DNA from: Alphaproteobacteria bacterium
Lineage (GTDB): Bacteria; Pseudomonadota; Alphaproteobacteria; SMXP01
DNA: 64,000 nucleotides
Direction: 5' to 3'
Assembly (NCBI GenBank): GCA_028285305.1
Contig: JANQPV010000009.1
Coordinates: forward strand, 62,001-126,000
The position numbers and the translations under genes were made by a program. Under the pieces are notes generated by a model, which was given only the letters and a program-made list of their open reading frames with translations, made no database searches and was not told where the DNA came from. This document shows, piece by piece, positions 6,250 through 21,223 of the stretch (positions within the stretch are counted from its first letter, which is position 1; each line of letters begins with the position of its first letter).

Positions 6250-7065
6250 ATGAATGCGCTCAAATGTCTGGTCGGGATTGTTATTATCGTCGCGGTTTAT
6301 CACGTGTCCTATGCCGAAGAGGAGGCTGGCCCGAGAACTGAGCGGTTTGGCTTTGCCGATACCCTTGGACATCACATCCTATTGCAGGTCGAACCAAGTT
6401 TTGAGACGCAGCTGTTGACTCGGGCGATTTGTGCGCAAGGGCGGTCTCTTCCTGTTACGGCCGTGAGCATGGCGGATATCCCCCACACTCATCCTACGGA
6501 CGAGCGGGCTGAGGACAAAGATTTTCATTCCCTTGGGGGAACGGTCTACCATGTAGGAGAGCCGGGAACGGCACCTCACGATACGTGTTACCTGGTGGAC
6601 CAGAAATCTATTGACGAGAGTGATGTTTTGGTTCCCGGACAGACGGATGAACCATGTCCAGAGGCGCTGAACAATCAGTTGGAAGCGGATCTTCGCCGTG
6701 TGGTCGCAAAGTGTTCCGTTCTGGCAATGTTTGAAAGCGGATTGCGGATCGCTCTCGTGGAGTATCAGCCCGAAGGAAAACACCTGCTCGCCAGTTTGAC
6801 TTTGTTTGGAGATGATCGGCTCGCCAATTTCTTGATGCCAGCGAAATCGGGTACAGGCAGCGCATGGCGGGTCGATGACGAAGAAGAGATTAGCGCAGAG
6901 GACTTTGAGGTCTTGTTTGGGCTTAATGGACCGGAGGGCGCTGCTGTGGCCATCGCTTGGGCAGGCGCGGAAGGCTCGAATATCGGCCTCTATCAGGTTC
7001 AGGGCGATACGCTCGAAATTGTGGCCGAGGGCTATCGGTATTTTCAGTTTCCCGATGCGCAATAG
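6250..7065 (+). CDS. Secreted hypothetical protein
   Basis: 271 residues from the ATG at 6250, which has AGGAGA 6 nt upstream; the frame is open further upstream, but this start opens directly into a signal peptide (MNALKCLVGIVIIVAVYHVSYAEE). The mature part has several cysteines and acidic patches but no motif I recognise. It is probably periplasmic. The gene starts 116 bp after the HerA-like ATPase, in the same orientation, and is followed by a hairpin. Confidence 0.65.
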   Translation: MNALKCLVGIVIIVAVYHVSYAEEEAGPRTERFGFADTLGHHILLQVEPSFETQLLTRAICAQGRSLPVTAVSMADIPHTHPTDERAEDKDFHSLGGTVYHVGEPGTAPHDTCYLVDQKSIDESDVLVPGQTDEPCPEALNNQLEADLRRVVAKCSVLAMFESGLRIALVEYQPEGKHLLASLTLFGDDRLANFLMPAKSGTGSAWRVDDEEEISAEDFEVLFGLNGPEGAAVAIAWAGAEGSNIGLYQVQGDTLEIVAEGYRYFQFPDAQ

Positions 7066-7066
7066 C

Positions 7067-7094
7067 AAGGGCGACCGGCAATTCGGTCGCCCTT
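7067..7094 (+). terminator. Hairpin after the secreted hypothetical gene
   Basis: AAGGGCGACCG-GCAATT-CGGTCGCCCTT is an 11-bp perfect stem with a 6-nt loop directly after the stop codon. The downstream T-run is poor (CTTAATC), so it may be a bidirectional or weak terminator; the EF-G-like gene converges from the right. Confidence 0.6.
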
Positions 7095-7140
7095 AATCGA
7101 AAGTCCTGAACCGGGTCGGCTGGGCGCCCCTGGTTGATCG

Positions 7141-9171
7141 TTACTCCGCAGTCGCCGATTGCACCACTTGGTCCGCCAATCGTCCGGTGAGCTCAGATAG
7201 GTGGTCGTAGTCTGACTCATAGGTTGCGGAGCCCAGGGTGACCGACCTTAGTTCGATGATGAGATCGTGAAGCTCTGCTTGCGGAATGTGAGCCTCAATG
7301 GCATCCCAGCCCGGCCAGCCCTCGCGGCCGTCGAAGCCGAGAATGTGGCCGCGCCGCGAACTGACGATGGAGTTAATCTGTCCGGTGAACTCGGACGGCG
7401 CCATGATTGAGACTTTCATGATGGGTTCGAGCAAAACCGGTTGGCATTCTGGCAACGCCTCGGACATGGCCATGCGCCCGGCCATTTTGAACGCCATGTC
7501 TGAGCTATCCACGCTGTGATAGCTGCCATCGACCAGCTTTACACCGACGTCCACAACAGGAAAGCCGAGGGGACCCGAGCGCAGATAGTCCTTCACGCCG
7601 GCTTCGACGCTCGGGATGTACTGTTTCGGGATGGCACCTCCCGTGATCGTATTGCTGAACTCAAACCCCGTTCCAGCCGGAACCGGCGCTATTTCCACAA
7701 CGACATCGCCGAATTGGCCGTGACCGCCAGACTGTTTCTTGTAGCGGCTATGATGCTTGGCCGATTTTCGGATTGTTTCCCGGTACGGAATTTTGGGGAG
7801 GTGCTCTTTTGCAGCAACGCCAAAGCGGTTGTTGAGCCGGTCCAGAGCCAGTTTGATGTGAAGATCGCCTTGGCCTCGAAGCAATATCTCATTTGACTCA
7901 GCATTTTGTTCGCACACGAGCGAAGGATCTTCTTCGCAGATCTTAATGAGCGACGAAACAAGCTTAACTTCGTCTTTCCGATTGGTGGGCTCAAGGGCGA
8001 CCGTGAATACCGGGTGAAGGACGTTGAAATCAGGCGCGGGCGCTGGGTCGCCTCCCGCGTTTAATCTGTGGCCCGTCTGAACCTTGTCGAGCTTCGCGAA
8101 GGCGACAACGTCACCCGCTTGCGCAGAAGACGTCTTGTTTGATTTGTCGCCATGCAGAGTAAACAATCCTGACGGTGCCTCGCCGCCGATTTTGTCATTG
8201 TCGCTAAACGTTCCGGCCAATATGCGTGCGAGAGAGAGCTTGCCCAGATGCTGTTGGTTGAAGGTTTTGAGAACTTGCGCTGTTGATTGATCGGTTTCTA
8301 CACCAAGGCGGAGTTGGACATTTTCTAGGTCCGGCGTTTCGTGGCGGAGCGCCTTGAGAAGGCGGTGCACACCGCTTACCTTTAGGGCAGACCCCATAAG
8401 CACGGGTATGATCAAGCCCTCTTGGAGTTCTTTTGCGAGGTCTTGGCAGATTTCTTCCCGGGGCGGCTGGGTGTCCTCAAGCAATTCCTCCATGAGGTGA
8501 TCGTCGAAGTCAGCCAGAGTTTCCAACATCTCATATTGCGCCGTGCCGAAACGATCGGAGAGATCGTCTGGAATGTCGATCTGTTTTGAAGGCTCGCCGT
8601 CCTGATAGACATAGGCGCGCCCGTGCGCCAAATCAGCGTAGCCTGTAATCTCATCGTTGGTGCGTATGGGAATCTGGCGGAGAACGATCGGCTTTTGAGT
8701 GACGCTGCGCAGAGCGTCTGCAAGTCCCGCAATGGATCCACCTGCGAGATCAACTTTGTTGGCAAAAATGTAGTGGGGAACGCCGAGATCTTCGAGCGTC
8801 TTTAACAGGGGGGCAAGAGAAACGATTTTGGAAGTATCGGTTTCGGTGACGACAATCGCTGCATCGCATATGGGCAGTATACTGAGAGACTCTTGCGATA
8901 ATTCGATTGAGCCTGGGCAATCAATAAAGGTATAGTTTTCGCCCATGAACTGGGTTGTGGCGATGTTGAGTTCCGTGCCCATCTGGCGGGCCTTGGCCTC
9001 ATCGCTGAAGTCGCCAAAAATATGAGAGCCGTTTGCTGAGCGGCGATCTAATGCGCCGGTCTGAAAGAGAATGGATTCGAGGAGTTGCGTCTTTCCGCTG
9101 GATTGGGGGCCGACAAGGGCAATGACACGTGTGGATTGACGGGGTCTTTTGGGTTGCACATTTCCAGGCAT
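7141..9171 (-). CDS. Elongation factor G-like GTPase (alphaproteobacterial paralogue)
   Basis: 676 residues from the ATG at 9171, chosen because AGGAGG lies 6 nt before it; the frame is open further upstream without a better start. G1 is GPQSSGKT (21-28), G3 is DCPGS (84-88), G4 is NKVD (138-141), followed by EF-G domains II to V. Canonical EF-G has DTPGH in G3; the catalytic histidine is replaced here by Ser88. The protein is also shorter than true EF-G (about 700). A housekeeping fusA would sit beside rpsG and tufA, which are absent here, so this is a paralogue of uncertain translational role. Confidence 0.85.
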   Translation of the reverse strand: MPGNVQPKRPRQSTRVIALVGPQSSGKTQLLESILFQTGALDRRSANGSHIFGDFSDEAKARQMGTELNIATTQFMGENYTFIDCPGSIELSQESLSILPICDAAIVVTETDTSKIVSLAPLLKTLEDLGVPHYIFANKVDLAGGSIAGLADALRSVTQKPIVLRQIPIRTNDEITGYADLAHGRAYVYQDGEPSKQIDIPDDLSDRFGTAQYEMLETLADFDDHLMEELLEDTQPPREEICQDLAKELQEGLIIPVLMGSALKVSGVHRLLKALRHETPDLENVQLRLGVETDQSTAQVLKTFNQQHLGKLSLARILAGTFSDNDKIGGEAPSGLFTLHGDKSNKTSSAQAGDVVAFAKLDKVQTGHRLNAGGDPAPAPDFNVLHPVFTVALEPTNRKDEVKLVSSLIKICEEDPSLVCEQNAESNEILLRGQGDLHIKLALDRLNNRFGVAAKEHLPKIPYRETIRKSAKHHSRYKKQSGGHGQFGDVVVEIAPVPAGTGFEFSNTITGGAIPKQYIPSVEAGVKDYLRSGPLGFPVVDVGVKLVDGSYHSVDSSDMAFKMAGRMAMSEALPECQPVLLEPIMKVSIMAPSEFTGQINSIVSSRRGHILGFDGREGWPGWDAIEAHIPQAELHDLIIELRSVTLGSATYESDYDHLSELTGRLADQVVQSATAE

Positions 9172-17434: not shown

Positions 17435-17464
17435 TTGAGACAGATCACCTAAAGGAGGTTGGTC

Positions 17465-17791
17465 ATGACGGAACAGATCACGCCCGCCGATATCGCATGC
17501 AGTCTTTCAGACGAGGAATTCCGCGAGCGCCGTGCACTCGTTCGTGAAACGGTGGTCTCGAAAGTATTGCGGACGGAACGGACGGTCTCCGGCTTGAAAG
17601 TCCGGTTTCCGAATACAGAAGAGATGAAGGAGACCGTTCAGCAGTTTGTCGAGTTGGAACGAGAATGCTGCGGTTTGCTTTCGTTTTCTCTTGACAAGTC
17701 TGGATCGGAACTAGAGCTCGAAATCGCGGGTCCATCATCAGATGCAAAGAAGACGCTCGATTTCTTCGCGCATGCATTGACTGAAAAATAA
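17465..17791 (+). CDS. Heavy-metal-cassette-associated protein with a CC motif
   Basis: 108 residues from ATG 17465, 7 nt after AAAGGAGG. It has the pattern ACSLSDEEFRERRALV at the N terminus, a central GLKVRFPN strand and ELERECCGLLSFSL with vicinal cysteines, ending in GPSSDAKKTLDFF. I recognise this layout from small uncharacterised proteins found beside MerR regulators and metal-resistance genes. No catalytic motif is known to me; the CC pair could bind a soft metal. First gene of the MerR-controlled operon. Confidence 0.65.
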   Translation: MTEQITPADIACSLSDEEFRERRALVRETVVSKVLRTERTVSGLKVRFPNTEEMKETVQQFVELERECCGLLSFSLDKSGSELELEIAGPSSDAKKTLDFFAHALTEK

Positions 17792-17792
17792 A

Positions 17793-18041
17793 GTGCGTAC
17801 GGACGAAGCCAAGACGTGGACTCGTATCGGCCGAAGCGGACTTTTCATCGGGCTGATGGCCGTCATGGCGTGCGAACTTCCCATTCTATTGGCGGTCCTT
17901 GGGTTGGGAGGTCTAAGCTCGATTGCGTCCATTTTTTCCCCTTCGCCCTTAATTGAACATTCTGCCTTAGCGCTCGCGGCGGTGGGTTTGGGAATTCTTG
18001 TGTTCGTCCGTTTACGGTTCAAGCATAGGAAAGGAGCTTGA
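17793..18041 (+). CDS. Small two-span membrane protein (possibly MerF/MerT-like)
   Basis: 82 residues, GTG start one base after the previous stop, so probably translationally coupled. Two hydrophobic helices lie at about 15-37 and 52-72, followed by a basic C terminus (RFKHRKG). Helix one contains ACELPILLAVLGLGG, which recalls the cysteine-pair helix of MerF/MerT mercury transporters, but only one cysteine is present. Membrane transport of a metal is inferred from context only. Confidence 0.5.
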   Translation: MRTDEAKTWTRIGRSGLFIGLMAVMACELPILLAVLGLGGLSSIASIFSPSPLIEHSALALAAVGLGILVFVRLRFKHRKGA

Positions 18042-18043
18042 CG

Positions 18044-18433
18044 ATGAAAATTGGAGACGTTTCGGACCGGCTCGGCATTCCCGCCTCCACCATCAGATAT
18101 TATGAGCAAATCGGTCTGATTGCGCGCCAGAGAAGGGAGTCTGGACGCCGTGTGTTCGATGAAAGGGCAATTACGGTTCTGCAATTCGTTCAGCTCGCGC
18201 AAGCCGCCGGTTTTTCCAACGAAGAAACGAAGTCTCTATTGGAGAATTATGCGAACGACCCTTCGCCCTCAGGTATGTGGACGCCGTTTGCGGAGACAAA
18301 GAGGCGAGAGATCCGCTTTCAAATCGAACGTTTACGTCACATGGACAAGATTTTGACTGAACTCTTGAAATGCGAATGCCCAACCTTGGACGCTTGCGTG
18401 GAAGCCGCATGCGGACGGGGTGTTGCCAAGTGA
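18044..18433 (+). CDS. MerR family metal- or redox-responsive regulator
   Basis: 129 residues from ATG 18044 (AAAGGAG 7 nt upstream; an in-frame TTG two codons earlier lacks this spacing). The winged HTH is MKIGDVSDRLGIPASTIRYYEQIGLI (1-26), followed by a dimerisation helix. The C terminus has four cysteines: C110, C112, C118 and C123. C-x-C-x5-C matches the last three cluster ligands of SoxR, but the first SoxR cysteine is missing, so a metal sensor is more likely. The perfect dyad at 17406-17425 is its probable site. Confidence 0.85.
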   Translation: MKIGDVSDRLGIPASTIRYYEQIGLIARQRRESGRRVFDERAITVLQFVQLAQAAGFSNEETKSLLENYANDPSPSGMWTPFAETKRREIRFQIERLRHMDKILTELLKCECPTLDACVEAACGRGVAK

Positions 18434-18654
18434 CTGCATTCGCAATTGAAGGCATGGGGCTTGCGGCCGTCGTCATCATGGTAGGGAGCTATGCTCTGGA
18501 ACATCGGCACCCGGCCTTCATTGCCATATTTTCCGGCGGGTGCGCGCTTGCCGCCCTCTACGCCCTGTTGATCGGTTCCTATCCGTTTCTTGTTGCGGAA
18601 GGGATCTGGGCGCTCATAGCATTCAGGCGATGGCGTGCCGCCGTTTGTTCCTGA
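18430..18654 (+). CDS. Small membrane protein, CBU_0592-like
   Basis: 74 residues from GTG 18430, overlapping the merR stop by 4 bp (GTGA), which argues for translational coupling. Three hydrophobic segments cover most of it: EGMGLAAVVIMVGSYAL, AIFSGGCALAALYALL and FLVAEGIWALIAFRRW. The pattern of an N-terminal G-x-x-G helix and a C-terminal WALIAF helix resembles the CBU_0592 small membrane family. The function is unknown. Last gene of the MerR cassette. Confidence 0.55.
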   Translation: MTAFAIEGMGLAAVVIMVGSYALEHRHPAFIAIFSGGCALAALYALLIGSYPFLVAEGIWALIAFRRWRAAVCS

Positions 18655-19999: not shown

Positions 20000-21223
20000 A
20001 TGGTTGTTGAAACGGATCATCACGGATTTGAAGCGCCTGCTGCACTGGGGCACCCCGGGCGGGCCGGTCTGCCGGAGGGCGCCTCGACGGGGCCTGATAT
20101 CGGGGAGCGTCTTCCCGACTTCGAGTTGCCCGATGCCAATGGACATATTGTGCGCTTCCACCACGATAGAGGCACGTCAAAGGCGGCCGTCGTGTTCTAC
20201 CGATCGGCGGTGTGGTGACCGCCTTGCATGACGCAGTTGGTCGAGCTGCGCGATCGCTATCACATTTTCGAGGAGGTGGGCATCAAGCTCTACGCCATCT
20301 CGTACGATGACCAGGAGGCGCTTAAGCAATTCTCCGATGCCTACGATATTCCGTACCCGATGCTCTCGGATGTGGACTCGGAAGTCATTAAGGCCTACGG
20401 CATTCTCAACACGCAAATAAAGCCCGGCGATGCGCTCCTTTACGGTATCCCCTATCCAGGCACCTATATCACCGACGAAAACGGCATTGTCATCGAGAAG
20501 AGCTTCTTCGATACCTACAAGCGGCGTATGTCGGCGGAACAGATGGTCGATCGAGCCGTTGGGGAAGTGCTTTTGCGCGGTGAAGAGCCGACAGCAGATG
20601 TTTCCGATGACGAAGGCATTAAGGTCTCGGCCACGCTCCACGGCGGTGCGATCAAACAGGGATCGCAAAGGGAGGTCATCGTCCGTTTTGATCTGCCGGA
20701 CGGGCTTCATATTTACGGTGAACCGGTGCCAGAGGGCATGATCCCGACAACAGTTTCTGTCGAAGGGCCGGAGGGTCTCGTCGTTGAGGAACTGATTGCG
20801 CCGCCCACGGAGCGCCTTTACCTCTCGTCGCTCGATCTGGAATTGCCAGTCTGGTCGGGCCAGGTTGATTTTCGGGTACCGGTCTATGCCACATCCACTC
20901 TTGCTTCCGAGTGCCGACCGGTGGACGACGATGAAATCACGTTGACCGTCACCGTGAAATACCAAGCATGCGACGATGCAGTCTGTCTCCTACCAAAAGA
21001 AGAGAAGATTGAGCTTGTCGTGCCGTTGGAGCCGGTCCACGTACAATCGATTGCCCTTCACACTGGTCATGGTCAGCGCGAGGCGCCTTATGACGGCATG
21101 CCGGCAGTCAAGCGGCTAATGGCGCGTAAGATCAAGCAGAGCCCCTTAGGGTTCGTGCGCTATCTCTTGAACGCCGCACGGCTAAGTTTGGCGGCGCGGC
21201 GACGATCAAAGGGGCCTCGTTAG
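20000..21223 (+). CDS. Putative selenoprotein: peroxiredoxin-like domain fused to a DsbD-alpha-like domain
   Basis: 407 residues if TGA at 20216-20218 is read as selenocysteine (Sec73). The start is ATG 20000 with GGAG upstream. The frame is the same before and after the TGA, and it interrupts the redox motif: R-S-A-V-W-Sec-P-P-C-M-T-Q-L-V-E-L, where relatives carry W-C-P-x-C. Residues 30-190 form an AhpC/TSA-type thioredoxin fold (ERLPDFELPDANG, YAISYDDQEALKQF, YPMLSDVDSEVIKAYG, GTYITDENG). Residues about 207-345 resemble the DsbD alpha domain, with YQACDDAVCLLPKEE (C324, C329). A SECIS-like stem-loop follows the TGA at correct spacing. The alternative, a nonsense-mutated pseudogene, is less likely because both halves are intact. 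No signal peptide is evident. Confidence 0.85.
20216..20250 (+). promoter_or_regulatory. UGA selenocysteine codon with bacterial SECIS-like stem-loop
   Basis: UGA is at 20216-20218. After a 13-nt gap comes CGCAGUU (20232-20238), loop GGUCG (20239-20243), and AGCUGCG (20244-20250): a 7-bp stem with one U-G pair. The loop starts 20 nt after the UGA. In E. coli fdhF the SelB-binding hairpin has a GGUCU loop starting 18 nt after the UGA, so both the sequence and the distance match well. Confidence 0.8.

Follow-up and report, generated by a model that had tools for sequence, protein, structure and literature searches.

A predicted selenoprotein joining a UxxC Prx-like domain to a DsbD-alpha domain in an alphaproteobacterial genome

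The gene, its in-frame TGA, and the selenocysteine machinery of the genome

The window, that is, the whole stretch of 64,000 nucleotides analyzed here from an Alphaproteobacteria bacterium (contig JANQPV010000009.1), carries a frame of 407 residues which is interrupted by a single TGA (table 1). A Shine-Dalgarno-like GGAG is located about 10 nt upstream of the start codon. When read with translation table 11, the gene falls apart at the TGA, with 72 codons preceding it and an ORF of 331 aa (20228-21223) starting from the ATG at 20228. The context of the TGA is YRSAVWUPPC (RSAVW-U-PPC), and the match to the AhpC-TSA family PF00578 spans this codon. The neighboring genes with Pfam support (P450, glutamate dehydrogenase, MerR, and SDR) use UGA as an ordinary stop, which is an indication that the recoding is local and the code is not changed. 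Further TGA-interrupted frames with a redox-like motif were looked for in the window, and none was gene-like as judged by eye.

The genes selA, selB, selD, and the tRNA-Sec form a single cluster in the same genome, on contig C73, all of them above the curated cut-offs. The other homologue-carrying genomes which were checked also possess selA above its cut-off (8/8), and in G126, which is one of these, approximately 12 kb separate selA from the homologue.

Other selenoprotein genes seem to be present in this genome. In proximity to the sel cluster, within locus L023 (C73:122600-142400), an alkylhydroperoxidase-related CFYUT selenoprotein is located on the minus strand (6507-7682; NF041238, 422 bits against a cut-off of 175). 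Four more AhpC/TSA-type frames contain a TGA within the motif W-U-P-[YF]-C (table 1), and thus the organism looks selenoprotein-rich.

Table 1. Coordinates of the selenoprotein gene in the window and of selenocysteine-related features elsewhere in the genome (C, contig; L023, locus C73:122600-142400)
Feature	Position	Strand	Basis or remark
Predicted whole selenoprotein gene	20000-21223	+	407 aa; start ATG 20000; Sec at residue 73; stop TAG 21221-21223
AhpC/TSA (Prx-like, thioredoxin-fold) domain, residues 34-165	20099-20494	+	PF00578, 111 bits; fold matches
In-frame TGA, Sec73, first residue of U-P-P-C	20216-20218	+	Sole internal TGA; TGA in 33/33 members
Cys76, putative resolving partner of Sec73 in UxxC	20225-20227	+	Invariant
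SECIS-like hairpin	Stem 20232-20238 with 20244-20250; loop GGTCG 20239-20243	+	Family conservation and published limits
DsbD-alpha (DsbD_N) domain, residues 220-339	20657-21016	+	PF11412 and fold
DsbD-alpha redox pair, Cys324 (20969-20971) and Cys329 (20984-20986)	20969-20986	+	YQACDDAVC, both invariant
Conserved tail, HxGHGQ then two basic helices	21059-21220	+	Invariant residues; model
tRNA-Sec	C73 131130-131220	-	78 bits
selD, with its own in-frame TGA	C73 131362-132306		376 bits
selA	C73 132481-133833		587 bits
selB	C73 133878-135734		311 bits
TGA-containing AhpC/TSA-type frame	L023 about 7693-8220	-	W-U-P-[YF]-C
TGA-containing AhpC/TSA-type frame	L023 13416-15311, second half	-	W-U-P-[YF]-C
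TGA-containing AhpC/TSA-type frame	C39:75989-76450	-	W-U-P-[YF]-C
TGA-containing AhpC/TSA-type frame	C8:5509-6039	-	W-U-P-[YF]-C

Distribution of the family and conservation of the recoding site

The scan of genome contigs revealed seven full-length relatives, with record titles including Alphaproteobacteria, Deltaproteobacteria, and Myxococcota. In the whole-genome searches, relatives were found in 3 out of the 385 genomes of the window's class and in 33 out of the 379 genomes (as counted from the table) of the phylum of a Myxococcales genome, where every full-length row has one in-frame TGA. The close family is composed of 33 extracted members including the window, whose protein is 50-69% identical to the relatives; two of these rows belong to genomes which the contig scan also contains, under different names. 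The TGA is placed at the same column within a single open frame in every one of the 33 members. The search of viral contigs showed no relative.

In the phylum to which an Acidobacteria genome belongs, the respective search gave strong matches in 51 of 396 genomes. From this search 25 loci were checked, among which those without TGA were picked on purpose, and therefore the distribution at residue 73 (17 Sec and 8 Cys) is a biased ratio for this mixed branch. The cysteines corresponding to C76, C324, and C329 are kept in all 25 divergent relatives. The maximum-likelihood tree of 57 rows separates the mixed Sec/Cys branch from an all-Sec branch of 40 rows in which the window is placed. Well-supported branches force at least six Sec/Cys changes in the mixed branch, their direction not being given by the tree, which is midpoint-rooted.

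A family with Sec exclusively was considered at first, based on the searches in the window's class and in the Myxococcota-anchored phylum, and was dropped after eight Cys two-domain proteins were verified in the Acidobacteria-anchored search; it holds only for the window's clade. Separately, one genome with the standard fusion was observed to have, in addition, a divergent Prx-like frame which contains three in-frame TGA codons (G442:C3:153195-153770).

Directly downstream of the TGA, a SECIS-like hairpin with a stem of 7 bp and the loop GGUCG starts 13 nt past the TGA, its loop lying 20 nt past it. This is within the limits of bacterial SECIS elements as given in PMC13188914 (loop of 3-9 nt, G in the first two positions, stem of 4-16 bp, and 16-37 nt from the UGA). 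The same limits include the hairpins of 32 of the 33 close-family members, the exception being L081 with a mismatch. The commonest form is CGCAGCTC-GGT-GAGCTGCG. Across the aligned sequences 98% of the stem cells pair, and three members show a compensatory change of G-C to A-U on both sides of the stem. Codons 78-84 are nearly frozen (normalized synonymous entropy of 0-0.67, the mean of the gene being 0.87), with Thr78 as ACG and Glu82 as GAG in 33/33 members and Leu80 as CTC in 31/33. Since 4% of the synonymous recodings of the window sequence equal or beat its hairpin, the weight of this evidence rests on the family.

The Sec two-domain relatives of the Acidobacteria-anchored search possess the hairpin in 16 of 17 cases, L142 having a weak one. 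Among the eight respective Cys proteins, it is intact in L136, moderate in L134, and absent or weak in six. Among the relatives sharing only the Prx domain, the nine with TGA show a hairpin 20 nt downstream of it, whose sequence is often quite different (UCCAGGC-GGUC-GCCUGGA), and in the five with Cys it is missing or very weak. Sec was not taken as proven by a hairpin alone, on account of the recodings mentioned above and of the Cys relative which keeps one. This relative, L136 (G1411:C2, Cys as TGC), is sister to L146 (G1154:C15, Sec as TGA), and the two share the identical hairpin GCAGCUCGUGGAGCUGC; L136 may have changed from Sec to Cys recently and kept its SECIS as a fossil.

The TGA could be a true stop, whether of a pseudogene, of a gene split in two, or through a sequencing error, as standard ORF calling gives two ORFs and the 331-aa part has an ATG 10 nt past the TGA. 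This is very improbable, because all 33 members have the TGA at this codon and a protein conserved on both sides of it, the Pfam domain runs across it, the sel machinery is present in the genome, and a 331-aa product would be devoid of the active site and of the beginning of the thioredoxin fold. The open frame alone does not identify the inserted residue, and the TGA might be read as another amino acid by reassignment or nonspecific readthrough. This is the least probable of all the alternatives: UGA terminates the Pfam-supported neighbors, the Trp codon directly before the TGA is TGG, relatives have Cys at this column, and a SECIS-like hairpin is found together with the complete Sec machinery. 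Conclusively, gene 20000-21223 is predicted to be translated, with near certainty, as one selenoprotein in which UGA 20216 is read as selenocysteine.

This prediction is in accordance with an earlier sequence-only reading of the locus, which had proposed a frame broken only by the TGA at 20216-20218, its split into a 72-residue piece and a 331-aa protein by standard calling, a TGA at the place of a redox Cys (W-U-P-P-C), and conservation on either side. The frame of 407 residues is otherwise open, the ORF listing under table 11 reproduces the split, relatives have Sec or Cys at the position in question, and the frame is open throughout the close family. The checks which had been suggested point the same way, as selA, selB, selD, and the tRNA-Sec (selC) were all recovered on contig C73, and residue 73 is Sec in the 33 close-family members and Cys in eight two-domain and five Prx-only relatives. 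A sequencing error is ruled out by the same TGA in dozens of independent assemblies. The reading as selenocysteine is thus upheld by the sel genes, the Sec/Cys homologues, and the recurrent TGA, with the hairpin as additional support.

Domains, cell location, and the putative redox relay

The fold of the first domain matches peroxiredoxins best, and ResA as well. The peroxidatic motif PxxxT/SxxC is absent, as YRSAVWUPPC has no Pro or Thr at the respective positions, unlike YPKDLTPGC in L036/L037, and hence the domain is named Prx-like and not peroxiredoxin. An AhpC/TSA domain with UxxC, by which UxxC Prx-like selenoproteins are defined, is present in the window protein. No NCBIfam model reached its cut-off with the full-length protein; the SelL-related redox protein model NF040769 scored 31.9 bits, below the curated cut-off of 120.

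Residues 220-339 are a DsbD-alpha domain in which the redox Cys pair is kept. PF11412 matches the window protein with 38-40 bits (cut-off of 25) and is above the cut-off in all 32 C-terminal parts tested. The model of the C-terminal part (mean pLDDT of 87.6) matches ScsB-N (Z of 11.9, rmsd of 2.7, 126 aligned) and ten entries of the DsbD N-terminal domain (Z of 9.9-10.8), the following rows being at 8.6. These matches include PDB 1z5y and 1jzd, in which DsbD-alpha is bound to a partner protein. The profile search of solved structures with this domain yielded no hit by sequence (E up to 1). The motif YQACDD..C of the window protein recurs in L034, in a complete membrane DsbD. The tail has no Pfam match, and its invariant residues are H354, G356, H357, G358, Q359, and E361. 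The remaining parts of a complete DsbD/ScsB, that is, the membrane domain and the C-terminal thioredoxin domain, were not found by Pfam or hydropathy in the 407 aa, where the maximum 19-residue hydropathy is 1.02. Taken as a whole, the recoded two-domain redox protein is given a probability of roughly 0.86.

Based on hydropathy readings and not on a signal-peptide predictor, the extracted members of the window's clade show no hydrophobic N-terminus and no clear membrane span, and the Alphaproteobacteria/Myxococcota relatives are predicted to be cytoplasmic. By the same readings, the relatives from the Acidobacteria-anchored search mostly have a signal-peptide-like start (L142 and L143 are without it, and L131 and L144 are ambiguous), so that most of them are probably periplasmic, in agreement with the periplasm as the known site of DsbD-alpha. 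One branch with Sec/Cys swapping against another with strict Sec and no export signal offers a natural comparison for the benefit of Sec.

The ORFs around 26 members showed no conserved operon and nothing pointing to a substrate; the recurrent neighbors SDR, P450, and GST are common genes. In the window, a P450 gene of the same strand ends 71 nt before the selenoprotein gene. Upstream of this P450 gene, a MerR-type regulator (18038-18433) is located amid three small ORFs without a Pfam match (17459-18654, plus strand), a layout like that of a small metal-resistance operon.

The proposed mechanism begins with SelA, SelB, SelD, and the tRNA-Sec of the same genome, which would read UGA 20216 as Sec under the direction of the downstream hairpin. 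Sec73 would then attack an oxidized substrate (a protein disulfide, a sulfenate, or a peroxide) and Cys76 would resolve it, forming a selenenylsulfide between Sec73 and Cys76. This center would be re-reduced by the pair C324/C329 of the fused DsbD-alpha, and the pair would be recharged by a cellular reductant, for instance thioredoxin. In known systems, C103/C109 of DsbD-alpha hands electrons to the thioredoxin-fold proteins DsbC, DsbG, and CcmG (PMC7347389), and the relay is suggested by the fusion, in which one chain carries a donor of this kind together with a potential client. A thiol/selenol-disulfide reductase with an intramolecular relay from C324/C329 to Sec73-Cys76 is accordingly put forward from this comparison at about even odds.

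The protein may instead act mainly as a peroxidase, with Sec73 or Cys76 reducing hydroperoxides and the DsbD-alpha pair resolving or recycling, since Pfam assigns the first domain to AhpC/TSA and its best structural matches are peroxiredoxins, and other selenoproteins of the genome are alkylhydroperoxidase-like. This seems rather unlikely, as the PxxxT/SxxC motif is absent, the UxxC layout is typical of thiol-disulfide oxidoreductases, and ResA structures match too. It is more doubtful still that DsbD-alpha binds a partner or serves a separate client and passes no electrons to Sec73; the predicted cytoplasmic location of the window form, apart from the usual DsbD partners, favors such a role, but the Cys pair of the domain is invariant in the close family and present in 25/25 divergent relatives. 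With the intramolecular relay retained as the preferred reading, a broader view is tentatively proposed, somewhat below even odds: a two-domain family of Acidobacteria, Myxococcota, and Alphaproteobacteria with a selenenylsulfide center and its own DsbD-alpha reductase, in part exported and in part cytoplasmic with strict Sec, which would perform DsbD-alpha chemistry without the DsbD membrane transporter.

Comparison with known systems

The sequence-only reading had regarded the UxxC Prx-like class as already known, and rightly so: thiol:disulfide oxidoreductase selenoproteins of this type (PF00578) appear as predictions in PMC13188914 and under the name Prx-like 1 in PMC2398784. It had also called the product a fusion protein, which is real, and had left the partner unnamed; the partner is here assigned to DsbD-alpha. 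A full-text literature search, outside subscription papers and supplements, found no description of a Prx-like/DsbD-alpha selenoprotein fusion, nor was one found in the accessible part of the 2026 review PMC13188914. The class is thus established, and its fusion to DsbD-alpha appears undescribed. The family is found in several bacterial phyla, standard annotation splits it, and it stays below the cut-off of every NCBIfam model.

Two other selenoproteins are among the closest known systems. TsoB (NF045694), as presented in PMC13188914, is a rhodanese/DsbD fusion-like selenoprotein with the motif UxxxxU and two Sec. It shares a DsbD-like part with the window protein, which on the contrary is Prx-like with UxxC and has the DsbD-alpha pair as CxxxxC; NF045694 is absent from the NCBIfam matches obtained with the full-length protein (E up to 1). 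Unknown_3 likewise joins a Prx-like selenoprotein domain to a Cys-containing domain, but with three conserved Cys including a CxxC, against two in CxxxxC here, a distinction made by description.

The UxxC Prx-like selenoproteins resemble the window protein in the AhpC/TSA domain, the UxxC, the SECIS directly downstream, and the existence of Cys relatives. The window protein differs by the addition of DsbD-alpha, a conserved N-terminal GHPGR extension, and the HxGHGQ tail. With DsbD-alpha/nDsbD (PF11412, also in ScsB) it has in common the immunoglobulin-type fold and the redox pair YQAC....C. Unlike that system, it has neither a membrane nor a C-terminal thioredoxin domain, its clade has no signal peptide, and a Sec thioredoxin-fold domain is joined instead, so that a putative Sec thiol-reductase is tied to a known electron-donor domain on a single chain.
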